From a bacterium (GTDB lineage: Bacteria; SAR324; XYD2-FULL-50-16): a stretch of 64,000 nt of DNA. Positions 4,765 through 56,500 of this stretch are shown here, piece after piece. Location of the stretch: the NCBI GenBank assembly GCA_024275165.1, contig JAJRZQ010000012.1, positions 209,077 to 273,076 on the forward strand. The letters are read 5' to 3'. The translations under genes and the position numbers were made by a program. Position 1 is the stretch's first letter. Every line of letters starts with the position of its first letter. The notes under the pieces were generated by a model, which had not been told where the DNA came from, ran no database searches, and saw only the letters and a list, made by a program, of their open reading frames with translations.

Positions 4765-6563
4765 TCGAGCCAATGTTGCAGGTGACCCTGTTGTTTACCC
4801 AACAACGCCAAGAGGCTATTTTGCTCGCTTTGCAACAAGACGGCCTGATCCACTTTGACTTAGCCGCGCCTACGGCGGCCGCTTTAGAGCCCCCGGTGCA
4901 GTACCGGAAAAAAATCGAAGCCCTGCTGAAATTGTATCCCCCCGGTCATTTTAGCCAGATTCGTAGAGAGGTCAGCTTGGAGCTGGATTTAACCGTGGTC
5001 GATGAGTTGACCCGCGTGCATCGTTCCATCCAGGAGACGCAAAAGGAAATCACCTTGATTTGTTCTGAGATCCCGATAGCCGCCCCCTATGGAGATTTTA
5101 ACGAAGCCTTGTTGGAAGAGTTGCGAAAGCAGGGGCTTTATTTGCTTCACTACCGGGTTGATCAAGGGGAACTCCGCAGCTTAAAGGGCTTGGATTGGTT
5201 TTCTATCTTTACCAAAGAGGGGAAGGAGTATCTGGTGGTGGTCTCGAAAGACCCCAACCTAGAGCTGCCCTTTAAAAAATTGAGCTTGCCGGAAAAAAGC
5301 GTAACCGCGCTCAAAGGAGAACTCAAAGCCCTAAGGGAGCAAAAAGAGTCGCTTTTAAGGCAGGAGGAAATCTTATTAGAAGATCCTACCCCAATTCAGC
5401 ACCTGCATTGGGAGGTTTCCAACCTCATTGAGTTTGAGCGGGCAAAAAAGACGACTCAACAAGAAGAGCAGGTGAACTGGCTGGTGGGCTATTGCCCTAA
5501 GGATCGCTTGTTTATTTTAGAAGCAATGGCGCAGTCTCATGGCTTTGCGTTGCTCGCTCGGGACGCGGACCAAAGCGCGGCGACCCCGGTGCGGATCAAA
5601 CAAAATCGTTGGACTCGGCTTTTTGCCCCCGTGATGGCCTTTATTGGGGTTGTTCCCGGTTATGATGAGCGAGATGCCGGCCCCGCCTTTTTAATCTTTT
5701 TTACCCTCTTTTTTGCCCTCTTGGTGGGGGATGGAGGGTATGGATTGGTGATGCTCGCGCTCACTTGCGCGCTGAAGCTTAAAAAAAAGGACTGGCCTCC
5801 TGAGGTGTTCCATCTTTTTTTTCTGTTGTCTGGGGCGAGTCTGGTTTGGGGAGCCCTAACCGGTTTGTGGTTTGGTTATGAGCCCCTGGGGAGTCAAGGT
5901 TTTTTGCGCGCGCTGGTGATCCCGGAGCTTTACGCCTACGCCAAAGAATCCGACGCTTTGATGATCCGTTTGGTTTTTATCTTAGGCTTAACGCAATTGC
6001 TGTTGGCCCACTTTTGGGAATTCAGCCGTAAGCCGAGGTTGGCGCAGAGGCTCACCGAGGTGGGTTGGGGCTTGTTTTTAATCGGGGCCTTCTTTTTGGC
6101 GAAATATTTTCTTTTGCAAGACCCCATGCCCCCCTTGGCAAAATCTTTGTTTGTTGTGGGGCTGGGTTTGGTCTTGTTGTTTGGGGAGCAGCGACCGCAG
6201 CGAAGTTGGTTAAAGGGGCTTGCTTGGGGGGTGGCGCAATTTCCCATGAACCTTTTGGGGGCCATTGGTTTTTTTTCCGATCTCGTGAGTTACATCCGCT
6301 TGTTTGCCTTGGGGCTGGCGACCAAACAAATGGCGCAAGCGGCCAACGACCTTGCCTTAAGCGGCGGCCATGAAGGGTTTTTTGGGGTTTTGGGGGCCGT
6401 CGTGATCTTGCTTTTGGGGCACAGCATCAACCTGACCTTAGCGGGCGTCGCGGTGATGGTGCATGGGATTCGTTTGAATTTTTTAGAGTTTGCCAAGCAC
6501 TTAAATATGCAATGGACGGGGAAACCCTTTGTTCCCTTTCAACGCGCTCCTCGGAGCTTTTAA
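4761..6563 (+). CDS. atpI: V-type ATPase membrane subunit I (a-type stator)
   Basis: Subunit I is the membrane stator that supplies the ion half-channels next to the K ring. The first 290 or so residues are soluble with coiled-coil-like helices (for example residues 95-110 and 190-215). The rest contains about seven or eight hydrophobic segments, beginning near FAPVMAFIGVVPGY. The functionally essential arginine is visible as Arg513 in SDLVSYIRLFALGLA, which in this family faces the acidic residue of K. At 600 residues it is at the short end of normal. The stop is followed after 11 bases by atpK. Confidence 0.95.
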   Translation: MIEPMLQVTLLFTQQRQEAILLALQQDGLIHFDLAAPTAAALEPPVQYRKKIEALLKLYPPGHFSQIRREVSLELDLTVVDELTRVHRSIQETQKEITLICSEIPIAAPYGDFNEALLEELRKQGLYLLHYRVDQGELRSLKGLDWFSIFTKEGKEYLVVVSKDPNLELPFKKLSLPEKSVTALKGELKALREQKESLLRQEEILLEDPTPIQHLHWEVSNLIEFERAKKTTQQEEQVNWLVGYCPKDRLFILEAMAQSHGFALLARDADQSAATPVRIKQNRWTRLFAPVMAFIGVVPGYDERDAGPAFLIFFTLFFALLVGDGGYGLVMLALTCALKLKKKDWPPEVFHLFFLLSGASLVWGALTGLWFGYEPLGSQGFLRALVIPELYAYAKESDALMIRLVFILGLTQLLLAHFWEFSRKPRLAQRLTEVGWGLFLIGAFFLAKYFLLQDPMPPLAKSLFVVGLGLVLLFGEQRPQRSWLKGLAWGVAQFPMNLLGAIGFFSDLVSYIRLFALGLATKQMAQAANDLALSGGHEGFFGVLGAVVILLLGHSINLTLAGVAVMVHGIRLNFLEFAKHLNMQWTGKPFVPFQRAPRSF

Positions 6564-6574
6564 TAGGAGAGATT

Positions 6575-7018
6575 ATGCAATGGTTTGATTCTTTTGGCGC
6601 CGCCGGTTATATCTTTGCTCTCACCTTTGCCGCCATGGGCAGCGCCTTGGGCACGGGGATCACGGGCCAGGCGGCTATTGGCGCTTGGCGCAAGGCCTTT
6701 TTAAAAGGGCAGGCGGCGCCTTTTATTCTCATTGCCTTTGCCTCGGCACCCCTTTCCCAAACCATTTACGGGATGATTTTGATGAACAGCCTGAAGGCGG
6801 CGGGGTTGGAGGTTCCTCCCATGGTGAAAGCGATGAGCGGTCTTTTTGGGGGGATGGCGATTGGGGCTTCGGCTTGGCTTCAGGGCAAGGCGGGGGCAGC
6901 GGCCTGCGAGGCTTTAGTGGATACCGACAAAGGCTTAGGTAATTATATCATGATCTTGGGCATTATTGAAACCGTTGCCCTATTCGTGATGGTTTTTTTA
7001 ATGACCGCCCTAGGCTAA
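6575..7018 (+). CDS. atpK: V-type ATPase proteolipid subunit K (rotor ring)
   Basis: Rotor-ring proteolipid made of two fused hairpins (four hydrophobic helices, 147 residues). I start it at the ATG at 6575, preceded by AGGAGA at 6565-6570; the frame is open further upstream but overlaps atpI without a site. The carboxylate is Glu132 in the last helix (GIIETVALF). The first hairpin carries PLSQTIYG (Ser61, Gln62, Tyr65), and Gln103 lies in WLQGK. These positions align with the Thr64, Gln65, Tyr68, Gln110 and Glu139 Na+ ligands known for Enterococcus hirae NtpK, so Na+ coupling is likely. Only hairpin two has a carboxylate. The stop overlaps the convergent barrel gene by 4 bases. Confidence 0.95.
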   Translation: MQWFDSFGAAGYIFALTFAAMGSALGTGITGQAAIGAWRKAFLKGQAAPFILIAFASAPLSQTIYGMILMNSLKAAGLEVPPMVKAMSGLFGGMAIGASAWLQGKAGAAACEALVDTDKGLGNYIMILGIIETVALFVMVFLMTALG

Positions 7019-8058
7019 AAATAAGCTTGCAGCCCAAGCTGTACCTGCGCTTGGTTGACTCGTTTTTGCAAGGGTTCTTGCAGCCATTGGGCGCGGCCAA
7101 TCCAGTGTAGGGGGCCTTTCCCCAGGCTTTGTTTGATTGCCAGACTGAAGCTTTGCAGCAGTTCAACCTGATTCACCGAGTTGAGAGCCCAATCATTGAG
7201 TGTTTTTTGGTAGAGGTCTTTGCGGTTGGCTACTTTGAATTGATGTCGGAAGGTCAACTCCGCATCGCCGTAGAGCCAGGCAAACTGATTTTCAATCTCA
7301 AAGCGATAACTGGTCTGAGTCCCTCTTTTTTCTCGTTGGATAAAATAGGTTAAATTTCTCCAAAAGGGTAGGAACCCGGGGATTTCGGGCCGTCTGTTTT
7401 CGTACTTGTACCCCGAGAGGAGCGCAAAGGGGGTCTCGACCCCTTGGGTGAGGATGGAGCGATTGTTGAAATAGAGGGAGTGATAGCGATAAGCATTGGA
7501 AATCCAACCGATTTCGACTTGGTGGTTGGTATATTGCACCCAATCGAGATTGCGCCCTGTTTGTAATTCGCTTCGCCTTTCCAGCCTGCGGGAGAACTCG
7601 ATAAAACTTCCCTTTTCCTCAAACCGTAAGCTGCCGCCGAAGGTATTGGGGAGGGTTTTTTCTTGGGTTTTCGCCTGGTAAGAGCCCCGTTCTTTACCGG
7701 CAATCCATTGGGTGCTGTTGATTTGCAGGTCCATTTTTCCCGTTTTGATTTGGAAAAAGGACTTGTTTAAGGAAAAGGTTTGACGGTGTAAGAGGTCGGC
7801 AGTGGAATCATAAATTTGTTCCTGGAACTCTTCTGTTTCAAACTCCCAGGTGAAGCGACCTAGGGGGATGGAAACATTCCGGCGGGTGCGTTGCGCCTCT
7901 TCTTTGATCTCGAGTTGCAAGGGGCTGAGCGCGTCTTTTTGGCTGTATTGGCTTTGGCTCTCTGCCTCCCCTTGCAGGGTGAGTTGGAAGGCGGAGAGCG
8001 GCGTGGGGAAAAGGGCAAGCCAGATCAAGGTCAAGAGGAGGGGGGTAAATCGTTTCAT
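7015..8058 (-). CDS. Putative outer-membrane beta-barrel protein
   Basis: A 347-residue exported protein of unknown function. I choose the ATG at 8058 because it opens a clean signal peptide (MKRFTPLLLTLIWLALF, probable cleavage after PLSA) and because it overlaps the upstream stop as ATGA; the frame extends upstream without a better start. The mature part has many alternating polar/aromatic stretches, for example VEIGWISNAYRYHSLYF and RFEIENQFAWLYGDAELTF. It ends in QVQLGLQAYF, with the C-terminal Phe that outer-membrane barrels use for BAM recognition. These features suggest a barrel of roughly 14-16 strands. No named family is recognised. Its partner is the lipoprotein encoded immediately upstream. 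Confidence 0.65.
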   Translation of the reverse strand: MKRFTPLLLTLIWLALFPTPLSAFQLTLQGEAESQSQYSQKDALSPLQLEIKEEAQRTRRNVSIPLGRFTWEFETEEFQEQIYDSTADLLHRQTFSLNKSFFQIKTGKMDLQINSTQWIAGKERGSYQAKTQEKTLPNTFGGSLRFEEKGSFIEFSRRLERRSELQTGRNLDWVQYTNHQVEIGWISNAYRYHSLYFNNRSILTQGVETPFALLSGYKYENRRPEIPGFLPFWRNLTYFIQREKRGTQTSYRFEIENQFAWLYGDAELTFRHQFKVANRKDLYQKTLNDWALNSVNQVELLQSFSLAIKQSLGKGPLHWIGRAQWLQEPLQKRVNQAQVQLGLQAYF

Positions 8059-9857
8059 GGCCCTTCCCAAGCGAGTCGGAACCCCAGGGTCGCTTTTTCC
8101 TCCCCTCGCTGGACAAAACTGCGTTTCGAGCAGCGCAGGGCAGAGGAACCGTCGAACCAACTCCCGCCGCGTTTGACTTGAAACAAGCGGTCACCTTGCA
8201 GGGTGGGGTTTTGGGGCGGTAAGAGATCGTAGGCGCGCTCGTTCCAGCTATCGGCAACCAGTTCTTCAACATTGCCGCTCAAGTCATAAAATCCCAATAA
8301 GTTGGGGGCAAAGAGCTTGACAGGGACAGGGCCTTTCCATTTCCCTCCAAAATGATGAAAGCGCCGACCTTTTTTGATCATCGAATATTGGGCAATGCCC
8401 GTGGCTTGCGCGTTAAAGGCCATCCAGTCGGGTCGGGCAATATTTTTCCCATTGCCGAAGCGCACTTTTCTGCCCAGCTGCCTACAGGCATACTCCCACT
8501 CCGCTTCACTAGGCAGGCGCAAGGCCCATCCCGTTTTTGATTTTGCCTCTTGCACAAAGGCATTGATCTCTTGAGGGGTGAGATGATCAACCGGCTTTTG
8601 TAGATTTTTTGCGTTAAAGCCTAGATTTTGCTTTCGCAAAGTGAGCCATTGTTCTTGCGTGAGCTCGGTTTCAGCGAGCCAGTAATCCTTGAGGCAAACA
8701 GGGTGCGGTTTGGAGGGGAACCCTTGGGTCTCCCTAAAGAGGTCGCCCATTTGATAACAACCCTGGGGAACCTCGATAAAGGTGAGGCCTAGGTATTGTT
8801 CTGTTCTTCTAGGAAAAGTCATGCCCGCAAACTCAGCCGGTTCGAATTGGCTTCGCCGAAAGAGCCCCAAGCTGAGTTCGGCGTCATTAAAATAGGTTTG
8901 CCTTAAATTGGACTCCATAAAGGCAACCTCCCCTTTGATTTGGGAAAAATCAGCGCCTTTTAGGTTAACTTGCTTGAAACTACTTTGACTAAAGCGGCTA
9001 TGGCTAAAATTCGCTTGGGGCATTTGCAGGTTGGCAAACACCCCTTGCTCGATCATCGAGCCTTGAAAGTTTGGTTGAGCAAAACTGGCTTGGGTGAAAT
9101 CGACTTTGGTCAAATGTGAATCAATAAAGCTTGCCTGACGGAGGTCGGCCTGCTGAAAACTCGTATGCGCCAGCCTAGCTTGGTCGAATTTAGCTCCCGT
9201 AAGCTTAGATCCTTTAAAACTAACATTGGAGAGGTCGGCTTTGGTAAAATCGGCTTGACTTAAGTCTAAATATTCCAATTTGAGGCCCGAGAGGTTGGTT
9301 TGGATAAATTGGGCTCCCTTTAAATCGGCAAAGGAAAAATGAACCGCAATCAGTTGACTTTTTGAAAAATCAGCCCCCCTTAAATTCCCGTTTGAAAAAT
9401 TCGCCCCCTTGAGCTTAGCCCGTTTAAACTGAGCTTGGGATAGATCAAGCTTAGAGAAGTTTGCCCCTTCTAAGTTGGTGTCGTTAAAAATCGTTTTTCT
9501 GAGTTTCGCTTGATGCAACCAGGCGTAGCGCACATTGCTTTTTGTAAAGTCCGCCCCTTCGAGTTGAGCGTCGCGAAAGTCGGTTTGCAGCAAGTCGGCC
9601 TCGACAAATTTTGCCTTTCTTAAATCGGCTCGACGAAATTGGGTTTCTTGTAGGGAGGCATGGCTAAAATCTTGTTCTACCAGTTGCCAATCGGAAAAAT
9701 TGTATTCTTGGAGGTTGCCCTGGGGGACTCCCGAACTTCTTAAACCAAGCGCGATATGGGCTTGGCAAGCTGCCAACAAGATTAGAGGCAGTAATAAAGA
9801 GCTTCTTTTCCAGCGGTTTTGCCGTGAGGTTAAGATGGGGTACGAGAAAGGGACCAA
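8055..9857 (-). CDS. Lipoprotein with pentapeptide repeats and FGE/SUMF1-like domain
   Basis: A 600-residue lipoprotein. The N-terminus has basic residues and a hydrophobic stretch ending in LLAAC (Cys31), a lipobox. Residues about 48-345 are pentapeptide repeats of A(D/N)Lxx or (D/N)FSxx type (ADLRKAKF, ADLLQTDF, ANFSNGNLRGADF), expected to form a right-handed quadrilateral helix. Residues about 355-598 match the FGE-sulfatase (SUMF1) fold: RLPSEAEWEYACR, DLSGNVEELV and VKRGGSWFDG. Only one of the two active cysteines of true formylglycine-generating enzyme is present (ALRCSKRSF), so a binding or structural role is more likely than catalysis. The start is TTG, with GAGG six bases upstream. 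The stop overlaps the next start as ATGA. Confidence 0.85.
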   Translation of the reverse strand: MVPFSYPILTSRQNRWKRSSLLLPLILLAACQAHIALGLRSSGVPQGNLQEYNFSDWQLVEQDFSHASLQETQFRRADLRKAKFVEADLLQTDFRDAQLEGADFTKSNVRYAWLHQAKLRKTIFNDTNLEGANFSKLDLSQAQFKRAKLKGANFSNGNLRGADFSKSQLIAVHFSFADLKGAQFIQTNLSGLKLEYLDLSQADFTKADLSNVSFKGSKLTGAKFDQARLAHTSFQQADLRQASFIDSHLTKVDFTQASFAQPNFQGSMIEQGVFANLQMPQANFSHSRFSQSSFKQVNLKGADFSQIKGEVAFMESNLRQTYFNDAELSLGLFRRSQFEPAEFAGMTFPRRTEQYLGLTFIEVPQGCYQMGDLFRETQGFPSKPHPVCLKDYWLAETELTQEQWLTLRKQNLGFNAKNLQKPVDHLTPQEINAFVQEAKSKTGWALRLPSEAEWEYACRQLGRKVRFGNGKNIARPDWMAFNAQATGIAQYSMIKKGRRFHHFGGKWKGPVPVKLFAPNLLGFYDLSGNVEELVADSWNERAYDLLPPQNPTLQGDRLFQVKRGGSWFDGSSALRCSKRSFVQRGEEKATLGFRLAWEGP

Positions 9858-10217
9858 GGGAACCTCATACGATAAAAGGGCTCTCTGGATGAGCAGAGAT
9901 TTTTCAAAGACCGTTTGTCGAAGCGGGCGCGGGCGCTAGTATGCTTTTTGGACAAAGAATACCGCGTCATCGCGCAAAGACGGATGCGTATCGCGCAAAG
10001 AATATACAATTGATGTGCCATAAAAAGCATGAAGATGATTTAACCGAAGCTTTTTGCCCAGAGGGGTTGCAAAGGGAAATCAAACCGGGCAGGGGGATGA
10101 AATGGGTTCAATTTCTTGTCAAGTTTTGCGCTAAAGAGTATTAGGGAGAATCAAGGAACGATCAAACTCGCATCCGAATCATCTTATTTTTGAACAACCC
10201 TTTAATAAAAGGTTCCC
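9858..10217. other. Divergent intergenic region with ordered repeats
   Basis: This 360-base gap separates the divergently read lipoprotein gene and the 10218 gene, so it should hold both promoters. I see two exact 12-base direct repeats and an outer 9-base inverted repeat, listed separately. Short open frames here on either strand lack a ribosome binding site and recognisable protein character. No strong sigma-70 promoter stands out. Confidence 0.5.
9969..10001. repeat. Two 12-base direct repeats, 21-base period
   Basis: ATCGCGCAAAGA occurs at 9969-9980 and again, exactly, at 9990-10001. The start-to-start distance is 21 bases, two helical turns, the geometry used by many dimeric response regulators. 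The pair is enclosed by an inverted repeat, ATGCTTTTT at 9941-9949 and AAAAAGCAT at 10022-10030. It lies upstream of both flanking genes. An operator role is inference. Confidence 0.5.
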
Positions 10218-11704: not shown

Positions 11705-14548
11705 ATGAGTTGGGATGTCAATCGATATTATCAGGTTCCTCAGGGGGGAGAAGAAGCGAAAAAGCTCGTCGAGAGTCTTTTGCAAAGTTACCCCTTGACG
11801 AAAGTCGCCTTTGAAATATTAGGCTCATCCCTGATTGATCAATCCTCTTTCGCCTACATTGGGGAGGGGAAAGACATCATTACCCAAGGGGAAAAGGGTA
11901 AAGACCTCTACTTGGTCTGCTTGAACCCCGTGCAGGTTTTAGTGGATGGGGGGGTGGTCGTTACGATGGATTCGCCTGTTTTATTGGGGGATAAGGCCTT
12001 GATCTGGCCTGATTCTACCCGTGCGGCAACGATCCGGGTTCCTGCTAAAATGCGGGCCTTGGTGATTAAAATTCCCATGGGGTTGTTTTTGAGAGATTTT
12101 ACCTATGCCGAAATTTCCGATACCAGTTTTAAGCGGGAAAAAGATATTTATTTAGGTCTCTTTCAAGAGATTCAAGCTCGACTTTTCAGCTATGTGCCGG
12201 AGCAAAAAAATCTCTTTGAAAGTATCAACAGCACGATTTTAGGGCTGAACCGAAAATTTATCGCCCAACTTTTAGAAAAGGGAGAAGAGCTTTTTTGGCC
12301 GGAAGACGCCTGGGTGAGCCTGCAAAATTTTTTGCAGAGTAAATTTGAGTTTTACCCGCCGAAGGGGGAAAAACTAACCGTCGCTAATTTTAAACCCCTG
12401 TTGCAGGCGCACTTTAATACCCGCTATCGGCTTGGTTCTCTACCGGGGAATGAAGCGGAGAAGGTGGCTAAAAGACAAATGTTGTGGAATAGCTGGATTG
12501 CCCAAGCGGCAACCCACTTAGTGGGCAGTCTGCCGCAAAAAAATCTCAGTTTTTCCTTAAAGGATATTCAACTTTTTAATCCCCTCAATTACCAGGCTTC
12601 CATGAAAACTCTCATGGAACGGGTCGAGAACTTTTTTCCCCCTAGAGCCAAAGCGGTTCAAAAAGGGGATATCAGTGATTATTTGAAGTCCGGTGAGCAA
12701 AGCGGAGAGGTTGACCTCCATGCCTATCAGGCATATTTATGCAAGCATTACTACTTGAAATATCCCCAACGGGTGATCGCCATGCTGGCTCAATCCTGCG
12801 CCAGGATCGCCGCGGAGTGCGAAAACGGATTCAACAAGGCCCTCGCTAAGATACGCCAGTACGATGAAAGCACCCAGCATTATAAATCCACGGTACAAGA
12901 GGCAACAACCAAGGAACTCGAGCCCAAGGTGGTACAAGCCCACTTGAATCAACTTTTGCGCGGATTCAACAAGTTGGCGCAAAATCGGGTCGGCGTGGGG
13001 GAGGTGCCTTTGGGAGAAACTCATTATGTTCCCGCCTTAAGCGGGAAATTGCCCGAAGTGGCTGCCACGGGCTCAACCAAGCATGTGCAGGAATCTATTT
13101 CGGTCGCCTATCGAGAATTGTTGGAACATTTGGGCTTAGTCCAGGAGCCCTTGGGACTGGGGCCCCTCATTGAAAGAGTTCAACTTATGAGCGGTTTGCC
13201 CGGGAACCGCGTCCCCGCCTCAGAGTTGACAAAAAATTATTTTATCCCCCTTGGCAAGGGGATTCAGTTGAAATGCAATGATGTGTTTATTGAAAACGCC
13301 CAGCCCGGTGGTTTTTATGGGGGGGAGGGCTGGTTGCCGGTTGAGGAGGGAGCGGATCAACCCTATTTAAATCTACCGGAACGCAAAAAAGACGGTTTGG
13401 TGGATCAAGGGCATCTTTTTTTGGTGATTCCCAATTTGGATTTGAGCAAAACCCACATCAACGAAGAAAAGTTTGACACAGAGACCTTGCCTTGGTGGGT
13501 TTGGCTGAAAGATCGCATGATTCGTGAACTGCTGACCCTTACCAAAAACCGAGACCAACTTTTAGAGCGCTGCTTAAGCTTAGAAGAAGCCTTGAGCTTA
13601 GATGAAAAGGTAGCGGGGCTGGAAGAAAACGAAAACCCCTTGGGCGAAAACGAAGCGGAGCAGATTAAGGCATTGCTCACGCAACTTGCCGACTTTACTT
13701 GGGAAGAGCCGGGACTGAGTTCCAAAGAAGTGACCCGCCGCCTTTATGAGCATCTCGTTATCCAGGCGAAAACAGAAAACCCGGAGCATTCCGACGACCA
13801 GATTCAAAACCATTGTTATACTCGCTTTCGCTTTTTCTTAAGTGAAATGGTGCGGCTCTTAAATCAACCAGATAAGAGCGAAGAAGAAAAGGTCGATCAG
13901 GTGGACTATAGCCCTGTGGCGACGGTTCTCCATCATCGCTTGGCGCGGCTTTTGGAAGAAGAGGAGATCGAGCAGGCAAAACAATGGGTGCAAACCGATG
14001 GATCAAGTTTGGAGATTGATTTAAAAGAGATTCTTGCCACACAAAAGACCCTGGAAAAAAAGAAGAAGATTTTTCGGTTGATCCAAGGGAATCTAGAGCA
14101 AGAAGTTCTGAAATTGCGCAGGCAACGGCGCCGCTTGGAAGAGCGGTTTGTGATCGTCGCCTCTGGGCAGCAGGGGGAAAAAGCCAAAGAACTGCAAAAG
14201 AAATTTATCCAAGAGCAGGTGGAAAAATTAGATAAATTGTTGTCGAAAGGGCTGCAAAGCGAGTTGAGTTCAGGTGAGGAAAGGCAAGATATTGAGGCAG
14301 CGTCCGCTGACACCCCGGAATCGGTCGCGACCGAGGGAGAAGAAGAGTTGGAATTGAGCCTAGACGATTTAGGTAAAGGGGGGTTGGATGACGATGACTT
14401 AGAAGGTGATTTAGGGGAAGGAGGATTGGACGAGGATGACTTAGAAGGTGATTTAGGGGAAGGAGGATTGGACGAGGATGACTTAGAAGGTGATTTAGGG
14501 GAAGGAGGATTGGACGACGCGGCCCTGGAAGAGGGCTTAGCCGAATAG
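11705..14548 (+). CDS. Large protein with N-terminal cyclic-nucleotide-binding-like domain and acidic C-terminal repeats
   Basis: A 947-residue soluble protein. Residues about 45-145 form a cNMP-binding-like fold: IGEGKDIITQGEKGKDLYLV, then LLGDKALIWPDSTRAATIRV, where G95-D-K-A-L99 and Arg106 match the phosphate-binding cassette. The usual Glu is Asp here. No helix-turn-helix or kinase domain follows. The middle 600 residues are unrecognised. Residues about 770-850 are charged and coiled-coil-like (KTLEKKKKIFRLIQG, LRRQRRRLEERF). The tail is very acidic and contains four 14-residue DLGEGGLDEDDLEG repeats. AGGGG precedes the ATG. The adjacent receiver and TPR-like proteins suggest signalling, but the role is unknown. 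Confidence 0.8.
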   Translation: MSWDVNRYYQVPQGGEEAKKLVESLLQSYPLTKVAFEILGSSLIDQSSFAYIGEGKDIITQGEKGKDLYLVCLNPVQVLVDGGVVVTMDSPVLLGDKALIWPDSTRAATIRVPAKMRALVIKIPMGLFLRDFTYAEISDTSFKREKDIYLGLFQEIQARLFSYVPEQKNLFESINSTILGLNRKFIAQLLEKGEELFWPEDAWVSLQNFLQSKFEFYPPKGEKLTVANFKPLLQAHFNTRYRLGSLPGNEAEKVAKRQMLWNSWIAQAATHLVGSLPQKNLSFSLKDIQLFNPLNYQASMKTLMERVENFFPPRAKAVQKGDISDYLKSGEQSGEVDLHAYQAYLCKHYYLKYPQRVIAMLAQSCARIAAECENGFNKALAKIRQYDESTQHYKSTVQEATTKELEPKVVQAHLNQLLRGFNKLAQNRVGVGEVPLGETHYVPALSGKLPEVAATGSTKHVQESISVAYRELLEHLGLVQEPLGLGPLIERVQLMSGLPGNRVPASELTKNYFIPLGKGIQLKCNDVFIENAQPGGFYGGEGWLPVEEGADQPYLNLPERKKDGLVDQGHLFLVIPNLDLSKTHINEEKFDTETLPWWVWLKDRMIRELLTLTKNRDQLLERCLSLEEALSLDEKVAGLEENENPLGENEAEQIKALLTQLADFTWEEPGLSSKEVTRRLYEHLVIQAKTENPEHSDDQIQNHCYTRFRFFLSEMVRLLNQPDKSEEEKVDQVDYSPVATVLHHRLARLLEEEEIEQAKQWVQTDGSSLEIDLKEILATQKTLEKKKKIFRLIQGNLEQEVLKLRRQRRRLEERFVIVASGQQGEKAKELQKKFIQEQVEKLDKLLSKGLQSELSSGEERQDIEAASADTPESVATEGEEELELSLDDLGKGGLDDDDLEGDLGEGGLDEDDLEGDLGEGGLDEDDLEGDLGEGGLDDAALEEGLAE
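14366..14533 (+). repeat. 42-base tandem repeat, four units, inside the 947-aa gene
   Basis: Units lie at 14366-14407, 14408-14449, 14450-14491 and 14492-14533. Units two and three are identical over 42 bases, unit one differs at a few positions and unit four degenerates in its second half. The reading frame is kept, each unit coding for 14 residues around GEGGLDEDDLEG. Near-identity at the DNA level points to recent slippage or recombination, so copy number may vary between strains. Confidence 0.95.
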
Positions 14549-32154: not shown

Positions 32155-33993
32155 CTATTTTTTTCGCAACTGGGTCAAATCCCGCACCGCGCCCTTAGCC
32201 GCGGAGGTTACCATCAAGGAGTAGGCCTGTAGGGCCACGGAAAGAGGTCGATCTCGTTCGGGTCGAAAGGCCTTTTCTCCCTTGCTTTGCATGATTTCCC
32301 GACGCTTTTTCAGGGTCTCGGGAGCAACGACAAGATGAATCGAGCGTAGAGGAATATCGATAGTCACTAGATCCCCCTCTTCGACCAAACCGATTTCCCC
32401 CCCCTCGGCCGCTTCGGGCGAAACATGACCAATGGAGAGGCCGCTGGTTCCGCCGGAAAAACGCCCGTCTGTGATTAAGGCGCAATCCGAACCCAATCCC
32501 TTGGATTTTAAAAAGCTGGTGGGATAGAGCATTTCTTGCATCCCCGGCCCGCCCTTCGGCCCTTCGTAGATAATAAAAACGACATCTCCCTTGACAATTT
32601 GATCGGCTAAAATGGCTTGACAGGCATCGTCTTGGGAGTGAAATACCCTCGCGCGACCGGTAAACTTCCAATTGCTTGGATCCACGCCCGCGGTCTTGAC
32701 CACGCAGCCCTCTTGGGCGATATTGCCGTAGAGTACGCAAAGCCCACCCTCTTGCGCATAGGCGTGAGCCCTGTCGCGGATGCAGCCTTGTTCGCGGTCG
32801 AGGTCTTGACTCTCCCACTTGGCGTTTTGGCTAAAGGCCTTGATGTTGAAAAAGCCACCTGGCCCCGCGGAAAAAAGGTCGAGGGCCTTTTGGTTGTCGC
32901 TGCGCTTTAGGTTAAAGGCGGCAATCTGCTCGGCTAAAGTCAGGCCCGATACGGTGGGGGAAGAGCCGTCAAGCTTTCCTGCCTTGAAGAGTTCGCCTAA
33001 AATCGCCATGATGCCGCCTGCGCGGTGTACATCTTCGATATGGTAGGAACTCGAAGGGGCCACCTTGCAAAGAGTGGGCACCTGCCGACTCAGTTCGTCC
33101 ATATCTTTCATGCTGTAGTTGATCTTGGCTTCATGGGCAATGGCTAAGAGGTGCAATACGGTGTTGGTCGAGCCGCCCATGGCAATATCTAAAGCCATGG
33201 CGTTTTCAAAGGCCTTGCGATTGGCGATGTTGCGGGGCAGAACTTGATCTGAAGCGGAAAAATAATACTGCTTTGCCATCTCTACAATGCGCTTTGCCGC
33301 TTCTTCAAAGAGTAGCCAGCGCCGTTGGTGGGTGGCCACCAGAGTTCCATTGCCCGGTAGAGCGAGGCCTAAGGCCTCAGCGAGACAATTCATCGAGTTG
33401 GCCGTAAAGAGGCCCGAGCAGCTACCACAGGTAGGGCAGGCATTGCGCTCGATTTCGTTCAATTGACTTTCGGAGACACTTCGATCCCCCCCGGCGATCA
33501 TGGGATCAATCAAATCCAGTTTGACTCCTTGGCTCAATCCGGCTTCCATCGGCCCCCCGGAGACAAAAATGGTCGGGATGTTGAGGCGCATGGCGGCCAT
33601 CATCATGCCGGGGGTGATTTTATCGCAGTTGGAGATACAAATCATGGCATCGGCGCAATGAGCGTTGACCATGTATTCCACCGAATCGGCAATCAAGTCG
33701 CGACTCGGTAGGCTGTACAGCATTCCGGCATGCCCCATGGCAATGCCGTCGTCAATGGCAATGGTGTTGAACTCCACCCCAAAACCGCCGGCTTGGTCGA
33801 TGACCTCTTTGACCTGCTGCCCTACATCTTTTAAGTGGACATGCCCCGGCACAAACTGGGTAAAGCTGTTGACGATCGCGATGATGGGCTTGCCGAAATC
33901 TTGGTCTTTCATTCCCGTAGCGCGCCATAAAGAGCGGGCCCCGGCCATGGTTCGCCCTTCGGTGGAAGTGGCGCTTCTGAGTTTTCCCTTCAT
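32155..33993 (-). CDS. ilvD: Dihydroxy-acid dehydratase
   Basis: A 612-residue IlvD/Edd-family dehydratase for the next-to-last step of valine and isoleucine synthesis. Iron-sulfur cysteines are visible in [11 protein letters not shown] and [40 protein letters not shown] marks the C-terminal domain. Length and motifs fit IlvD rather than Edd ([20 protein letters not shown] at the start). It overlaps the upstream 582-residue gene as ATGA. ptsI follows at 35 bases. Confidence 0.96.
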
Positions 33994-35738
33994 TTTTCCT
34001 GAATCATGGTAAAGAATTTATCAAAGGCTTCCAAGACTTCGGGAGACTGGAAGCTGTATTCGAACACCGACTCCCCCCGTATAACGCGCTGGTCAACGGG
34101 CTCCCCCATGGGAGCGAGTTTTTTGTTGCAACCGTAGATAAAATAAGGCGTAAACTGGTAGTTGGACTGGGTTCCGCTTTTTTGGTAGCCCATGCCCAAC
34201 TGCTTGGCCTTGACTTCTGCCCCAAGAAAGCAAAAGTGCCAGGTCTCATCGGGGCCGGTTTTTTCCTTGATGAGATAGGGCAAAATCCATTCGTGCTTGG
34301 GGGTTCTGCGTTGGATCAAGGTTGACTCGCTCACGCTGCTGAAGATGCGAGTGAGCTCTTTGGCAAAATTTTTATAGCCTTCCAGCCCCATTTTACTGCG
34401 CAGCAGGGTCAAGGTTTTGGGGAAGTCCCCTACGGTTTTTGTTAAGTAGGGAAAATCAATTTCGTTTTTCTTTAGTTTGATGACTTCGTAGGTGGTTTCA
34501 AACTCTTCGGGTTCTGGCTCGGGCACATTGACCAGTTCCGGCTTTTCGCTTGCCTGGGGCTGCCGAGCCGATGCTTTGGGCATTGGCTTGGCTTTGCCGC
34601 CCGTGACCATTTCCTTGAGTTTGGCGATACTTGCCTTGGCAGCGGTGGTTGCCACGGCGAAGTGTTGCACGAACTCGGAGAATCCACCGAAGTTTTCGCT
34701 CAGGGCTTCGATTTCTGTTTTAAGGTCGTCTGCTACTTCAGCGTTGACCTGAGCGGTGAGGTCGTTAAATACATTGGAGGGGAGTTGTTGAAGGATTTCA
34801 ATCTCTTGTTCCGGCGCAATGGAGACCCATTCAAATACGGTTTTCCCCTCAAAGGAGTATTTTTTATAGATTTCGGTTTTAGCAGGATTCCCCGCTAAGG
34901 TATCTTGCATCCAGTGGATCAGAAACTCTTGTTTTAAAATCTCAAAATCCAAAAAATTGTAATGAAAGCTTTTGACCTCTCCGGCGATTTTTGCCTTCAT
35001 CCCTGAATAAAAGTAAATAAAAAAGAAGTGATTGCGATAATTGAACTTTTTTAACACATGGGGGAAGATGTAACTGATCTCTTGTTCCTTGCGTTTTAAA
35101 ATCGCTTCAGGAGAGATATGCTGGGGAGTGATCCCGCGATAAAGCTCTTTTTGGTATTTGGGCTGGATGCACATCTGGAACATGAGCCGAAACACGGTTT
35201 TTAGGTTTTGTAAAATCTCAATCTGCTTTTTGGAGGGAAAGTGCGAAGGGAAGGCCCCCCCAGAGGTGATGCGATTATACAAAACATCAATCGACTCAAT
35301 GGTTTTGTTGAGCTTATAGAGATCCCAAAGAATACGGATTTCTTTTTCTTGGTCGTTTAGACCGCGAAAGACCAAGAATTTTTTATCGTCGGACTCTTTT
35401 ACCTGAAAAAAATGCAGCAAAAGAACCTTGATCCCCCCCTTTTGGTAAAAGGGAGGAAGAAATTGCAGGTACTTCTTTTTTAAAATAGGATCAGAAACCT
35501 GATCGCGAATCCATTCGATTCGGTGGCGAAGGAACTGCACCAAGAATTTACGCATTGCCATCGCTTCTCGAACATCTTCAGAGTCATAATCGAATTTGGA
35601 TTCGAAATATTGCTCTTGCAAGAGCTTTAAGTTGTCTTGCCAAAATTGCACCTTTTGCAGCATATCAATAATCAACTGCTCAGGGCTTTTTGGTTGCTCT
35701 ATGATGATCAAGTCGACGACTTTTTTTAAGTCGGACAT
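33990..35738 (-). CDS. Unknown 582-residue protein coupled to ilvD
   Basis: No family recognised. The protein is soluble, rich in Lys, Phe, Tyr and Glu, with no signal peptide or clear membrane segment. Residues about 1-330 are helical and aromatic ([11 protein letters not shown]-like stretches, [17 protein letters not shown]). Residues about 345-395 form a helix with small residues, then a Pro/Glu/Lys linker ([19 protein letters not shown]) at 395-425 separates a C-terminal domain of about 155 residues. Aromatic residues and lysines are abundant throughout. Its stop overlaps ilvD by 4 bases. The ATG begins a gene whose upstream 290-base gap is shared with the divergent channel gene. Confidence 0.8.
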
Positions 35739-36028: not shown

Positions 36029-37051
36029 GTGACGGTGAGCGCAAAAGGAAATGAAAAACGGATTGCCCTGGTTTTGGGAAGGGCATTGCTGCCGCTGCTG
36101 AGCATCGTTTTGCTCGGGAGTTTAGGGTATCATTTTATTGAGGGTTGGCCTTGGTTTGACAGCCTGTATATGACCATCATTACCTTGACGACGGTAGGTT
36201 ATCAAGAAACCCACCCTTTGAGCCAAATCGGCAAAGGATTTACCTTGATTTTGCTCTTGGTGGGAATCGGTAATTTTGCCTATGTGGTTCGAACCCTTTC
36301 ATTGGATTTCTTAAACCCGCTGCTTTCAGGATATTTTAAGGATTTACGCATGGAGCAGACATTAGAAAAACTTAAAAACCATTATATAATTTGCGGTTAT
36401 GGCCGCATCGGTAGGGATGTGGTCGCTCAGTTGCTGGCGGCGGATAAATCCGTGGTGGTCATTGATGGGCTCGAACCGGAAAAACTAGGTGGGGTAGATT
36501 CTGGTTTGTTGTTTGTTCAAGGGGATGCCAGTCATGAAGAGGTTTTATATAAAGCGGGTATAGAGCGGGCGAAGGGATTGGTCAGCGCGGTGCGCTCCGA
36601 GGCGGAAAATGTTTTTATCACCATGACGGCTCGGGGAATCAACGCGAAACTTTTTATTATCGCTCGTTACGAAGAAGAACCAACGAAAAAAAAGCTGATC
36701 CGCGCCGGCGCCAACCGAGTAATCAATCCTTATAGCATTGGCAGCAGCAAGATCAGTCAGATTATTTTACAGCCCACGGTGAGTAAAATTATTGATTTTG
36801 CCTCCTCTCATGAAGGCTTAAATTTAAATTTTGAAGAATTCGACATCCACCCCACCCATCCCTTTGTCGGGCAAACTCCACAAACCTGCGGGGTGAGAGA
36901 ACAATTTAATGTCATTATCATCGCGGTGGAAAAAGCAGGGGGAAGAATCATCTCCAATCCCGGCGCCCAATATGTCTTTGAAGCGGGAGACAAGGTGGTG
37001 ATGATTGCCGATCAACAAGAAATGGTTAAACTGTTAAAAAGCTATGCTTGA
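36029..37051 (+). CDS. Potassium channel with RCK (TrkA-N/TrkA-C) domains
   Basis: A 340-residue two-transmembrane K+ channel subunit with a cytoplasmic gating domain. The first hydrophobic helix spans about residues 15-35, the pore loop holds TLTTVGYQE (filter Thr55 to Gln59), and the second helix spans about 66-90. An RCK N-terminal Rossmann domain begins with YIICGYGRIGRDVV, followed by VVVIDG; a TrkA-C domain occupies about 255-340. Four such subunits would form a ligand-gated channel. The start is GTG at 36029 without a clear Shine-Dalgarno, so another start is possible. The filter has Gln where most channels have Gly. Its stop overlaps the WD40 gene by 8 bases. Confidence 0.9.
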   Translation: MTVSAKGNEKRIALVLGRALLPLLSIVLLGSLGYHFIEGWPWFDSLYMTIITLTTVGYQETHPLSQIGKGFTLILLLVGIGNFAYVVRTLSLDFLNPLLSGYFKDLRMEQTLEKLKNHYIICGYGRIGRDVVAQLLAADKSVVVIDGLEPEKLGGVDSGLLFVQGDASHEEVLYKAGIERAKGLVSAVRSEAENVFITMTARGINAKLFIIARYEEEPTKKKLIRAGANRVINPYSIGSSKISQIILQPTVSKIIDFASSHEGLNLNFEEFDIHPTHPFVGQTPQTCGVREQFNVIIIAVEKAGGRIISNPGAQYVFEAGDKVVMIADQQEMVKLLKSYA

Positions 37052-39947
37052 GCGATTCGTATGCTTACGACCCCTTTTGCTGGGAATGATTTGGCTTTTA
37101 TTCCTACCGAACCTTAGCCTCGCTAAGGAGGAATATGTAGTCAACCGCACCTATAACGCGCCGAAAGGCACTCTTTATGGGGGCAGTATGTCTCGCGATG
37201 GAAAGTATATCTTTGCCATTGATAAAGATTACAACCTGAGGATTTGGAGGTATACTACAGGAAGAATCATCAAATCCATCAAGGGCGGCCGTCATCGGCC
37301 CATTGCCGGGGTTTTTCATCCCACGCGCCCGATTCTTTTCACGGTGGGTAAAGATGGAAATGTCTATATCTGGGATATTGCCAAGGGCGCTAAAATACAG
37401 GTTTTACAGACCCATATTCAAGAGTTGCACGCGATTGCCATTAGCCCCAATGGGAAAAAGTTGGCCGTAGGGGGGAAGGGACGCAATATTATCATCTGGA
37501 GTCTGGACCGTTATAAAATATATAAAAAAATTATTGAACCGAGCCGGAATGTCTTATCCTTAGATTATCATCCAGATGGGAAAACGATTGCCTGGTCGAA
37601 CGGCAATCAAGAGGTCAAAGTCTGGAACACCGCCAGCGATACTCTGGTCGCCCGTTATAAGAAACACAAAACAAAAATCACTCACCTGAAATTTCACCCT
37701 TCGGGAAAGCTCATTGCCAGCGCTGATTTTTCGGGTCAGGTGGTTTTATATAACCTGGAAAAACGAGCGGTTCAGCGAGTTTTTAAGGAAAATAAAAAGG
37801 CTGTTTCCGCCGTTGATTTTGATGTCACCGGAAAAGAGATGATGACCTGTTCGCTGGACGGCACCATTAAGCTGCGCAGGCTCAGGAGCAATAAACAAAT
37901 CCAAAAGTTTAAATTGGTGGGGAAACCGGTTCACTTTTGCGAGTTTTCCGCTGACTCCAAGCAGGTGGTGGCTATTTTCGATACCAGTTACCTCAGGAGT
38001 TGGAATTTGGAGGATTCGAGTCATATCGGTTCCTTTAAGGGGCATAAAAAGGCAATTGTTGATTTGGATATCTCCCCCAATGGGGCCTTACTCGTTTCCG
38101 TGGGGCAGGACAATCAAATTATTCTTTGGAATGTAGCAAAAAAGTCCATGATCCGCTCTTTCAATGCCGAGGGACACAACCCGCAAGCCATTCGTTTTTC
38201 TCCAGATAACTTAAGGTTTGCCACTGCCGGGGGGGATGCCACCATCAAAATCTGGAATAAGGCGAACGGTAAGGTTCTCAATACCTTGAAGGGGCATTCG
38301 GGGAAGGTCAATGCCTTGGCGTTCCACCCTTTTGAGAATACGCTTTTGAGTGCCGGGGCAGATAAAAAAGTGATCCAATGGGATTTGTCGACGGGCAGCA
38401 GAATGTTTGAACGGACCGAGCATCAAGGGCAAATTTTTCAAATTAAAATCAGCGAAGATGGGGAAAAATATCTCACCGCCAGTCAAGACCGAACCGCGAA
38501 GTTATGGCGTTACTACGATCACCAACTGCTTTACGAATTCAAGGGGCACAAGAGAGGAGTTCGGGCCATTGCCTTTGCTCCCGGTAAGGAGAGGGTCGCT
38601 ACCGGTTCGGACGATAAAAGCATTCGGATTTGGGATACCAGCACGGGCAAAATGAGCCATATGCTTTTAGGGCATGATTTTATCATTAGCGGTTTGCGAT
38701 TTGCGACCGATGGGAAAACCTTGGTTAGTTCGAGCCGAGATAAAACCATTCGGATGTGGGATGCCCAGAGGGGCGCGTTTATCCGTACCTTATCGGGTCA
38801 GGATGATCAAATCGTCGCTATTTCAGTGACTTCAAATGGAAAATTTTTAGCTTCTGGAACCTTGAACGGGGAAATCAATTTGCTCAAATTACCCAAAGAA
38901 CTCTTTCGCGCCACGGCTTCCTCGGCAGAGCAAAAGCGCAAGGCCTTACCGCTGGGGGAGGATTTGCCTAGCGATGCGACCGCTTTTTTTGAGCCCCTCC
39001 CAAACCCTAAGCCAAGCGTGGAAAAAAAGAAATCCTCCGCGGTGAAGGAAAAGGATATTATTGAAGAAGAAGTGATAGAGCGCAAAGACAATGTGTTTGA
39101 GCCCCTCGTCGTGCAAGAAAATCAAGAACTCAAAGCGGCCAGGGTTAGCTTAAACAATGCCTTAAAAAATACTGCGAACTGTGTTAATTCGGTTCAAATC
39201 GCCAACCTCGCATTTGAAATTTTAAAAAAAACCCCCGATGATTTAACGGCTTACTATGCTCTTTTGCGTTATTATTTGGCGCAAAAGGATATGCAAGCTT
39301 TATTTATGGTGGCGCAAATCGGCCAAAGGGGGAAATTCTACAAGGAAGTTTATGATTATAAATCCGAACAACGGGTGCGTGATATTTTTAAGGATTGGAA
39401 TAATAATATTTTAGAAGTGGAAGATACAAAAAATCAAATTCAATTTGAGCTGGTTGATTGCAACCAGATGGTCACGGATGTAGAAGTTCCTAAAGCTTTA
39501 CCGGTTCTCAGTTTGCCCCTTGAGGTTGGGGCGCGGGTTTTAAATGGTGAGATTCGATTGGATTTAAGCCTCTTCGCAGGTTTGGAAAAACAGCCCGAAG
39601 TGTTTATCAATCGGTTTTTTGCTTTTGTTCAAGGGAGCATGCGCAAGCTAAAGCGGGTCAACCTCCAAACCCTTGAGCCCTACCAACCCCCTCCCGTAGG
39701 GGAAGCGATTTTTGGTTATTTAGTGCTTGATTTGGTTCAGTTTCAGTCGATGGGGCAACCAGAGGGGAGAGTGTTTTTTCAATTAAAAAAAGGCCAGGAG
39801 GGCTGGCGTACCTATGGTACGACACTGAAAAAGAAGCGAGAATTGATGCTGCTCAAGGGGAATTATTATCTCAAAGTAGGGGGGGAGGTGGTCAGTGCCT
39901 TTGAAATCAATAAAAATAAGCAGGTCATTACCCAGGCCGTTCCCTAA
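37044..39947 (+). CDS. Exported WD40-repeat protein
   Basis: A 967-residue protein with a signal peptide (MLERFVCLRPLLLGMIWLLF, probable cleavage after LSLA). Residues about 30-625 are WD40 repeats, roughly 13-14 blades and so two propellers, with typical units such as GHSGKVNALAFHP and SDDKSIRIWDTSTGK. A charged Pro/Lys/Glu linker lies at about 645-690. The remaining 280 residues are unrecognised; they begin with helical, TPR-like sequence (AFEILKKTPDDLTAYYALLRYYLAQKD in sections) and end beta-rich. Export of such a protein suggests a periplasmic or surface scaffold. Eight bases overlap the channel gene upstream, so they are probably cotranscribed. Confidence 0.88.
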   Translation: MLERFVCLRPLLLGMIWLLFLPNLSLAKEEYVVNRTYNAPKGTLYGGSMSRDGKYIFAIDKDYNLRIWRYTTGRIIKSIKGGRHRPIAGVFHPTRPILFTVGKDGNVYIWDIAKGAKIQVLQTHIQELHAIAISPNGKKLAVGGKGRNIIIWSLDRYKIYKKIIEPSRNVLSLDYHPDGKTIAWSNGNQEVKVWNTASDTLVARYKKHKTKITHLKFHPSGKLIASADFSGQVVLYNLEKRAVQRVFKENKKAVSAVDFDVTGKEMMTCSLDGTIKLRRLRSNKQIQKFKLVGKPVHFCEFSADSKQVVAIFDTSYLRSWNLEDSSHIGSFKGHKKAIVDLDISPNGALLVSVGQDNQIILWNVAKKSMIRSFNAEGHNPQAIRFSPDNLRFATAGGDATIKIWNKANGKVLNTLKGHSGKVNALAFHPFENTLLSAGADKKVIQWDLSTGSRMFERTEHQGQIFQIKISEDGEKYLTASQDRTAKLWRYYDHQLLYEFKGHKRGVRAIAFAPGKERVATGSDDKSIRIWDTSTGKMSHMLLGHDFIISGLRFATDGKTLVSSSRDKTIRMWDAQRGAFIRTLSGQDDQIVAISVTSNGKFLASGTLNGEINLLKLPKELFRATASSAEQKRKALPLGEDLPSDATAFFEPLPNPKPSVEKKKSSAVKEKDIIEEEVIERKDNVFEPLVVQENQELKAARVSLNNALKNTANCVNSVQIANLAFEILKKTPDDLTAYYALLRYYLAQKDMQALFMVAQIGQRGKFYKEVYDYKSEQRVRDIFKDWNNNILEVEDTKNQIQFELVDCNQMVTDVEVPKALPVLSLPLEVGARVLNGEIRLDLSLFAGLEKQPEVFINRFFAFVQGSMRKLKRVNLQTLEPYQPPPVGEAIFGYLVLDLVQFQSMGQPEGRVFFQLKKGQEGWRTYGTTLKKKRELMLLKGNYYLKVGGEVVSAFEINKNKQVITQAVP

Positions 39948-54295: not shown

Positions 54296-56500
54296 GTGAA
54301 GCCATTCCTTGGGTTGTGTGGGTTTTTTTTTCTCCTTTTATGGGGGGGGCCGGCGCAGGCGGGCGAAGTGATTCGTTTTTGGCAGTTTTGGCCTGAAGAT
54401 TGGCTCCAAGAACCCCTAGCCCAGTTTGAGGCGGAGACGGGGCATAAGGTTGTCTTAGAGCGGCTCACCTGGGGGGATGGTTTTAACAAAATCGTAACCG
54501 CCTTAGCGGCTGCGGAAGCCCCAGACATAATCGAACTGGGCAGCACCTGGGTTGCCGGGTTTTCGGGGCAAGGGGGGATACAACCCTTGGAGGTAGAGGA
54601 CCTGAAACCAAAGCTTAACCTTTGGCGCCCCACGAGTTTTCAGGGGCGCACCTACGCGGTTCCCTGGACGCTCTCGACCGGGGCGCTGTTCATTAACCAA
54701 GACCTTTTAGAACAAACCGGCCTGCCCCCTCCCACCGACTGGAAGCAGTTGAAAGAGGTTAGTGAAGCGATGCAGGGCCTTGGCCCGGGAATCAAGGGCT
54801 TTGGGTTGAAAACCGGTTCCTACACCACCTGGCAGAAGTTTCTTCCCTTTGTTTGGTCGAATGGAGCCAATCTATTGGAGCAAGGGCAACCCAAACCCAC
54901 TGACCCCGCCTTTTTGCAAGCCTTGGAATTTTATGCCTCCTTAGTCCCCTCCAGTCTACTGGATGACAACCTCATGGTGCGCAAGGCCTTTGCTCAGGGG
55001 AAATTGGGCATGATGCTCGATGAGCCGGGGCAAATCGCCCAATTCTTAAAAGAAAGACCGGAATTGAGAATTCTGGTCATGCCTCAACCGAAAAGCCCCT
55101 ATACGGGCAAATCAATCGCCTTTGCGGGGGGGCAAATGCTGGCGGTCACCAAGGACGCGAAAAACAAAGAGGCGGCCCAGGCGCTCATTCGTTTTTTGGT
55201 GCGTCCTGAGGTGGTTCAACAGATCACGCAGCGGATTACGACCCTGTTTCCGGCTTATAAAGGGGCCGCTTTAGACCCCTTTTATCAACAAAAGCACCCG
55301 GAGCTTTTGGTTTTCCTGACCGCCTTGGAAACGGCGACCAGCCCCGAGGCGCACCCCTTTTGGATCGCGATTCAAGAAGCCTTTTCTTTACAGTTGGAGC
55401 GAGTGCTCTATGGTTTGGCGACCCCGAAAGAGGCCATGGACTTGGCCCTGCGGGATATGCTTTTTGGTTTGAATTCCAACAAACCTGCAAGCGCCTCCGC
55501 CATCGACCCCTTGACCCTGCCCTGGGGCTGGATTTTAGGTACTCCCTTAGGGCTTTGGGTTTTAATCACCGGCTTGAGGATGCGGCGAGACTGGGCGCGT
55601 TCTCCCCTACGGCGGGGTTATCTGCTGCGCCAATGGCGTTACCAATGGAATACCTTTTTATTCCTCGCCCCTTGGCTCTTTGTATTTTTGACCTTTAGCC
55701 TTTATCCCATTGCCTATAGTTTTTTCATGAGCCTCACCTGGTACCCCGCCGCGAGCAATGAGGTGCCGCTTTGGGTAGGGTGGAGCAACTACATGGAATT
55801 GCTTTGGGATCCGCATTTTCTCCAGGCCATGAAAAACAGCTTGATCTTTGTTGCCGGTACCGTTCCGGTGATCTTGATGCTCGCGTTGTTTTTAGCGGTT
55901 GTCTTAAACGGAAACCTTGCCTTGCGAAACTTCTACCGCGCCAGTTATTTTATGCCTGTGGTGGCCTCGGTGATGGTGATCGCCACCTTGTTTTTCGAGT
56001 TGTACGCCCCCCAAGGCTTACTCAACGGGTTTTTAGGGATGATCGGTCTCGGCCCCGTACCCTGGTTGAAAGACCCAGCCTGGGCCTTGAGCAGTGTGAT
56101 GTTGATGAATATTTGGGCGAGTTTTGGTTTTTACGCCTTAATGCTTTTAGCGGGGTTGCAGGCTATTCCGGAAGAATATTACGAGGCCAGTTCCTTAGAG
56201 GGGGCGGGAAAGCTCCGGCAATTTTTTACCATTACCCTTCCCCTATTGAAACCCACCTTGATTGTCGCCGCGGTGATGGATGTAATTTTGGCTTTTCAGG
56301 TTTTTGGAGAGATTCTTTTACTCACCAGGGGAGGGCCGATGCGCACCTCGGAAACGGCGGTTTATTTTCTCTATGAAACGGCGTTTCACAAGCAACGAAT
56401 GGGGTATGGGTCCGCGGCGGCCTATTATGTTTTTTTGGTGCTTTTGCTCTTTTCCTTGGGCCAATTTTGGTTGGGCAGGGAAAAAAAGTCAAAGGAGTAA
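54296..56500 (+). CDS. ABC transporter substrate-binding protein fused to a permease
   Basis: A 734-residue fusion. After a signal sequence (FLGLCGFFFLLLWGGPAQA), residues about 25-390 are a family-1, MalE-like solute-binding protein (FWQFWPEDW, YAVPWTLSTGALFINQDLLEQTG, AFAGGQMLAV). A hydrophobic helix at about 405-425 leads to a MalF/UgpA-type permease (about 450-730) with six or so membrane segments and the EAA coupling loop EEYYEASSLEGAGKLRQFF. The substrate is probably a sugar. No MalG-type permease or ATPase gene is adjacent. The start is GTG, 1 base after mtnP. Its end overlaps the convergent regulator by 12 bases. Confidence 0.9.
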   Translation: MKPFLGLCGFFFLLLWGGPAQAGEVIRFWQFWPEDWLQEPLAQFEAETGHKVVLERLTWGDGFNKIVTALAAAEAPDIIELGSTWVAGFSGQGGIQPLEVEDLKPKLNLWRPTSFQGRTYAVPWTLSTGALFINQDLLEQTGLPPPTDWKQLKEVSEAMQGLGPGIKGFGLKTGSYTTWQKFLPFVWSNGANLLEQGQPKPTDPAFLQALEFYASLVPSSLLDDNLMVRKAFAQGKLGMMLDEPGQIAQFLKERPELRILVMPQPKSPYTGKSIAFAGGQMLAVTKDAKNKEAAQALIRFLVRPEVVQQITQRITTLFPAYKGAALDPFYQQKHPELLVFLTALETATSPEAHPFWIAIQEAFSLQLERVLYGLATPKEAMDLALRDMLFGLNSNKPASASAIDPLTLPWGWILGTPLGLWVLITGLRMRRDWARSPLRRGYLLRQWRYQWNTFLFLAPWLFVFLTFSLYPIAYSFFMSLTWYPAASNEVPLWVGWSNYMELLWDPHFLQAMKNSLIFVAGTVPVILMLALFLAVVLNGNLALRNFYRASYFMPVVASVMVIATLFFELYAPQGLLNGFLGMIGLGPVPWLKDPAWALSSVMLMNIWASFGFYALMLLAGLQAIPEEYYEASSLEGAGKLRQFFTITLPLLKPTLIVAAVMDVILAFQVFGEILLLTRGGPMRTSETAVYFLYETAFHKQRMGYGSAAAYYVFLVLLLFSLGQFWLGREKKSKE

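Follow-up and report, generated by a model that had tools for sequence, protein, structure and literature searches.

A pentapeptide-repeat lipoprotein with an FGE-like domain encoded next to a predicted outer-membrane beta-barrel

The gene pair and its surroundings

The window, the whole stretch of 64,000 nucleotides of DNA that was analysed, carries two overlapping genes on its minus strand. The upstream gene encodes a predicted lipoprotein composed of a pentapeptide-repeat rod and a C-terminal domain related to the formylglycine-generating enzyme (FGE), and the downstream gene encodes a predicted outer-membrane beta-barrel (Table 1). An earlier note on this DNA had placed two genes here, joined by an ATGA overlap of stop and start codon, the second of which codes for a barrel ending in Phe; the open reading frames and the junction bear out this layout in full. 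At its other end, the stop of the barrel gene overlaps by 4 bp with the convergent gene for the K subunit of a V-type ATPase (6512-7018), which contains two ATP-synt_C stretches.

Table 1. Coordinates of the lipoprotein-barrel gene pair and its features in the window
Feature	Position	Strand	Remarks
Lipoprotein gene	8055..9857	minus	600-aa ORF with translation; TTG start likely; stop TGA
Outer-membrane beta-barrel gene (predicted)	7015..8058	minus	347 aa including signal peptide; 16 predicted strands; C-terminal Phe
ATGA stop/start overlap of the two genes	8055..8058	minus	Junction sequence GGGCCATGAAACGA
Predicted lipidated Cys31 of lipobox LLAAC	9765..9767	minus	+2 residue Gln; Cys aligned and invariant in orthologue alignment
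Predicted pentapeptide-repeat quadrilateral beta-helix	8823..9719	minus	Residues about 47-345, about 15 coils; from Pfam, AlphaFold and register count
FGE-like domain (PF03781)	8067..8780	minus	Residues 360-597; without either catalytic Cys; positions of four other Cys conserved
Conserved 10-residue turn between strands 10 and 11 (Y-x-N-x-x-P...W)	7360..7404	minus	Periplasmic side predicted; may serve for docking
Two copies of ATCGCGCAAAGA	9969-9980, 9990-10001		Exact 12-nt direct repeat, 21-bp spacing, between divergent genes

The earlier note had also read divergent repeats upstream of the lipoprotein gene as a sign of controlled expression. A repeat is indeed present, as a single 12-nt sequence that occurs twice, but it was found at no other locus examined and so lacks conservation. 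A sigma-70-like promoter could not be detected, and the argument for control of expression is weak. A search of Rfam gave nothing. Elsewhere in the window, a gene for a 967-aa protein with many WD40 repeats (37044-39947) overlaps a TrkA-type ion channel gene (36029-37051) at the end of the latter, and a single 734-aa reading frame (54296-56500) combines a solute-binding with an ABC permease domain, an uncommon fusion. Two large reading frames of 947 and 582 aa (11705-14548 and 33990-35738) are without any Pfam match.

Whole-genome searches recovered full-length orthologues of the lipoprotein (37-40% identity, with values of 39% for G004 and 37% for G002) in two further genomes, G002 and G004, both of which also encode orthologues of the barrel (16-22% identity). 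In the window genome and in these two, which represent three genera of one family, the lipoprotein and barrel genes adjoin in identical order, with an overlap of the same kind in G002 and a gap of 2 nt in G004. Across 383 genomes from 322 genera, a full-length lipoprotein and a close barrel are both encoded in exactly the same three. The genes that flank the pair in G002 and G004 are common to the two and encode hemerythrin, a 419-aa membrane protein, a TetR regulator and a chemoreceptor, unlike in the window where the pair faces the V-type ATPase operon; homologues of the hemerythrin and of the membrane protein (423 aa) are located on contig C42 of the window genome, without the pair. Since adjacency is kept while the flanks differ, the pair is a unit that has outlasted rearrangement. 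It probably forms a small outer-membrane machine of a kind not described before, which perhaps serves export, although with only three genera known, all of one family, some of the co-occurrence could be due to nothing more than co-inheritance. A search of plasmids returned nothing, and no description of a lipoprotein-barrel pair of this kind was found in the literature searched. The proposal of the earlier note that the barrel could have a dedicated partner is supported: neither outcome that would have refuted it occurred, as the genes adjoin in two further genera and the prediction of a barrel, described below, holds.

The lipoprotein

The N-terminus of the lipoprotein carries a lipobox in which the residue at position +2 is not Asp, which identifies it as a putative outer-membrane lipoprotein; Lnt is encoded within the window. 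Downstream of the lipobox the protein matches Pfam family Pentapeptide_4 above cut-off (E 1.6e-59, 198 bits). A register count shows hydrophobic residues at all pentapeptide centres, 54 of 54 in the window rod and 61 of 61 in each of the two orthologues, and AlphaFold predicts a quadrilateral helix with pLDDT mostly above 90. The Pfam score and the predicted helix together characterise the rod as a pentapeptide-repeat beta-helix, and the earlier note had recognised it correctly as part of a lipoprotein. Pentapeptide helices rise by 4.8 Å per coil, which would give the predicted rod a length of about 7 nm. No Cys is found in the window rod.

The C-terminal domain belongs to the FGE-sulfatase superfamily (PF03781, E 8.5e-30, 104.7 bits against a cut-off of 23.3). 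Active formylglycine-generating enzymes possess two catalytic, copper-binding cysteines, C336 and C341 in the human protein. In an alignment with human FGE, the position of C336 is taken by Asp and that of C341 is deleted, and the absence of these cysteines is the same in all three orthologues. The earlier description of an FGE-like domain with one catalytic Cys missing is therefore right about the kind of domain but not about the number, and since both residues are missing the domain is enzymatically dead and an active FGE is ruled out. Another four cysteines keep their positions across the three orthologues, two of them within the EWEYAC and RC motifs typical of the FGE-like superfamily. AlphaFold models the domain poorly from three sequences (pLDDT under 50), so that its identity rests on the Pfam match and on PDB sequence matches, of which the best are to PorK/GldK/GldJ-type lipoproteins, the closest solved relatives. 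When 85,000 genomes were scanned with the lipoprotein alignment, the best 80 loci listed contained FGE-domain relatives only, and none of these 80 encodes a pentapeptide rod or a related barrel. In the genome of a relative, a reverse transcriptase is encoded beside an FGE-domain protein with PEGA repeats (L035, 3940-8531), likely forming a diversity-generating retroelement.

The barrel and its remote relatives

The AlphaFold model of the barrel, built from the alignment of three sequences, consists of 16 long strands and is of moderate confidence (pLDDT 69). When it was compared with the PDB using Foldseek and a second aligner, only outer-membrane barrels appeared at the top, the best with a Z of 15.8, an rmsd of 4.3 and 288 residues aligned. 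BtuB, OprD-type porins, AlgE (Z 14.3) and others score close together, and because many unrelated outer-membrane barrels tie in Z, no family is assignable from the fold. The two-face hydrophobic contrast of the strands lies above that of shuffles (p 0.014, 0.019, 0.061), and the C-terminal residues of the three orthologues are Phe, Tyr and Phe. These features characterise the protein as an outer-membrane beta-barrel, as far as a model of moderate confidence can predict. Its interior is predicted to be near neutral to slightly acidic. At the turn between strands 10 and 11, residues Y219, N221, P224, P227 and W233 are invariant in the alignment of barrel orthologues, and the strand count suggests that this turn faces the periplasm.

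Neither Pfam nor NCBIfam contains a family that the window barrel matches, and the barrels of its orthologues are without a Pfam match. This rejects YaiO (PF19413/TIGR04390), which is matched neither by the window barrel in either database nor by the orthologues in Pfam, and likewise the SLAM (DUF560) translocon, to which none of the three barrels has a Pfam match. Membership of the AlgK/AlgE system was rejected as the lipoprotein is without TPR and the barrel matches no Pfam family. Searched against PDB sequences, the barrel profile matched no barrel even at E 5, which shows that it does not simply detect barrels in general.

The profile of window-type barrels has a weak match in a further genome, G006, whose barrel in turn, when used as a query, retrieves relatives in G001, G034, G014 and G041 and, weakly, the window-type barrel of G002. 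A profile built from these five remote barrels, which come from five genomes of the same class, aligns with the window-type profile at a probability of 95.7 (E 9.6e-9) over 274 collinear columns, compared to 1.6 or less for controls comprising reversed profiles, twelve block permutations, a YaiO barrel and a propeller protein. When compared singly, the window barrel fails to match the remote profile, and the link depends on its orthologues. The profile-profile comparison, which is new here, makes the window barrel a distant branch of a barrel family that no Pfam or NCBIfam model names. The turn between strands 10 and 11 is loosely kept in the remote barrels as P..W.

YaiO barrels are associated with a GT2 synthase in loci of the E. 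coli yaiO/yaiP type. All five remote barrels have as neighbours a GT2 glycosyltransferase, a membrane protein with HEAT repeats, or both, and often a response regulator as well; in G041 the contig ends with just the HEAT gene in view. Loci of the unnamed family are L139 (1710-5640), L140 (3670-7664), L138 (1993-5767), L034 (2775-8247) and L141 (169-2593). The same gene set occurs in G018 with a true YaiO barrel instead (TIGR04390, 113 bits vs 32), so that YaiO holds the slot that is filled elsewhere by the distant relatives of the window barrel. The unnamed family thus appears to fill the YaiO slot in glycan-synthase loci, and the remote loci look like ones for synthase-dependent glycan export. 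In G006 and G001 the barrel is preceded by a propeller-type lipoprotein, a homologue of which is also found in G018 (42-49% identity) and whose family in these three genomes has no Pfam match above cut-off. Locus L154 (668-5941) combines a propeller lipoprotein, a response regulator, a true YaiO barrel, a HEAT protein and GT2.

The window barrel differs from YaiO in that it does not match this family and has no GT2 partner. None of the three pair-bearing genomes was found to encode the GT2/HEAT synthase of the remote loci, so that no substrate is in sight, and the window barrel would therefore either have kept export with another substrate or have changed its job. A role in polysaccharide handling or transport, as the earlier note had envisaged, gains indirect support from the remote homology to barrels of GT2-synthase loci, but the genomes with the pair lack that synthase.

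A possible outer-membrane complex and its alternatives

The best explanation of the pair, which we put forward tentatively, is a two-part outer-membrane complex in which the lipoprotein is docked on an export-type barrel by way of its rod and FGE hub. An N-terminal lipid would anchor the lipoprotein to the outer membrane, its rod would be stiff, and the non-enzymatic FGE-like domain at the end of the rod would act as the docking hub. The 16-strand barrel would supply the membrane-spanning element, most probably a channel of the export type, with the lipoprotein seated on it as a rigid scaffold, probably through the conserved longer turn. The contact between lipoprotein and barrel, the side of the membrane, export and the substrate are what we infer. 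The three-genus adjacency in constant order and amid differing flanks, the joint occurrence, the resemblance of the predicted barrel to outer-membrane barrels, the remote homology to barrels of GT2 loci and the precedents given below all speak for such a complex, while the missing GT2/HEAT synthase, a predicted barrel interior unlike the electropositive pore of AlgE, the pLDDT of the barrel model, the failure of the window barrel by itself to match the remote profile and the limitation to three genera of one family speak against it.

In its logic such a complex would resemble AlgK-AlgE, with a PorK-like dead-FGE hub replacing the TPR scaffold. In alginate export by Pseudomonas, the barrel AlgE works with the repeat lipoprotein AlgK (PMC9734138), and the window pair likewise joins a repeat-built outer-membrane lipoprotein to a barrel that has AlgE among its fold matches. 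However, AlgK is built from TPRs rather than from pentapeptide and FGE-like parts, AlgE counts 18 strands, its pore is electropositive (PMC9734138), and window-type genomes are without a recognised synthase beside the pair. PorK provides a precedent for the hub, as a dead FGE fold within a lipoprotein that serves for docking in the type IX system (PMC12421860); like the window lipoprotein, the FGE-fold lipoproteins of this system (PorK, GldK, GldJ) lack both catalytic Cys. The window lipoprotein differs in its pentapeptide rod and in having a small barrel as its putative partner instead of a PorN ring. A more far-reaching version, which we consider unlikely, is an undescribed export or secretion apparatus in which the pentapeptide-rod/dead-FGE lipoprotein replaces a TPR scaffold and a barrel of a glycan-export family has been captured and re-used for another substrate.

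The main rival to the export complex, somewhat unlikely in our estimate, is a surface rod. Here the barrel would translocate or anchor the lipoprotein, and the rod and its C-type-lectin-like FGE domain would project outward to bind a ligand as an adhesin or capture protein, for which SLAM with its surface lipoproteins and the BtuB-BtuG pairs are precedents. The pairing of the two genes agrees with this, and FGE-like domains do build ligand-binding surface proteins, including T. denticola variable protein 1, which the window domain matches in the PDB sequence search (E 1.4e-9). BtuG resembles the window lipoprotein in being dedicated to a barrel, and the propeller lipoprotein ahead of the related barrels in G006 and G001 is superficially like BtuB-BtuG as well. 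However, the barrel matches no SLAM family, and whereas BtuB depends on TonB and contains a plug, the window barrel lacks such a domain and, with 347 aa and 16 strands, has no room for a plug of the TonB type. It is improbable that the two genes form an operon by history only, with an ordinary porin next to an unrelated envelope protein; the restriction to three genera of one family would suit this, but joint presence and absence in 383 genomes, the stop-start coupling and an adjacency that outlasts the change of flanks all argue against it.

A device for envelope integrity or stress, with the rod lying along the outer membrane and the barrel as sensor or anchor, appears distinctly improbable. 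Its model is YjbI of Caulobacter, an exported pentapeptide beta-helix that acts at the outer membrane, resides in the LPS layer and controls outer-membrane composition (PMC12864828). In YjbI the helix is flanked by two Cys pairs, which are absent from the window rod and on which ground a YjbI-type secreted protein was rejected; moreover, the part of the source consulted describes no lipidation, FGE domain or barrel partner for YjbI (PMC12864828). A type IX-like ring or gliding component related to GldK, GldJ or PorK is very unlikely. Among solved structures, PorK/GldK lipoproteins come closest to the FGE-like domain, and TIGR03525 (PorK/GldK) is matched at E 2.6e-21, but its 76.4 bits fall far below the NCBIfam cut-off of 350 for this equivalog, and a pentapeptide rod stands in place of the other PorK parts. 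A search for the SprA/Sov translocon gave no match in the genome, and none in the control genomes either. Finally, a DGR-like pair of a reverse transcriptase and an FGE gene on contig C101 of the relative G006 raises the idea that a diversity-generating retroelement uses the domain as its variable protein. This is scarcely credible, as the assembly of the window genome contains neither a reverse transcriptase nor, for the C-terminal DNA, any template-repeat copy.

The familiar role of pentapeptide-repeat proteins is the protection of gyrase in the cytosol. Only recently has one of them been shown to act at the outer membrane (PMC12864828). For the role of exported pentapeptide rods, the pair described here offers a compact and testable example, in which a rod is genetically locked to a barrel and bears a dead-enzyme domain that would serve for docking. 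The pair also ties the window barrel to an unnamed family that apparently substitutes for YaiO in glycan-synthase loci.
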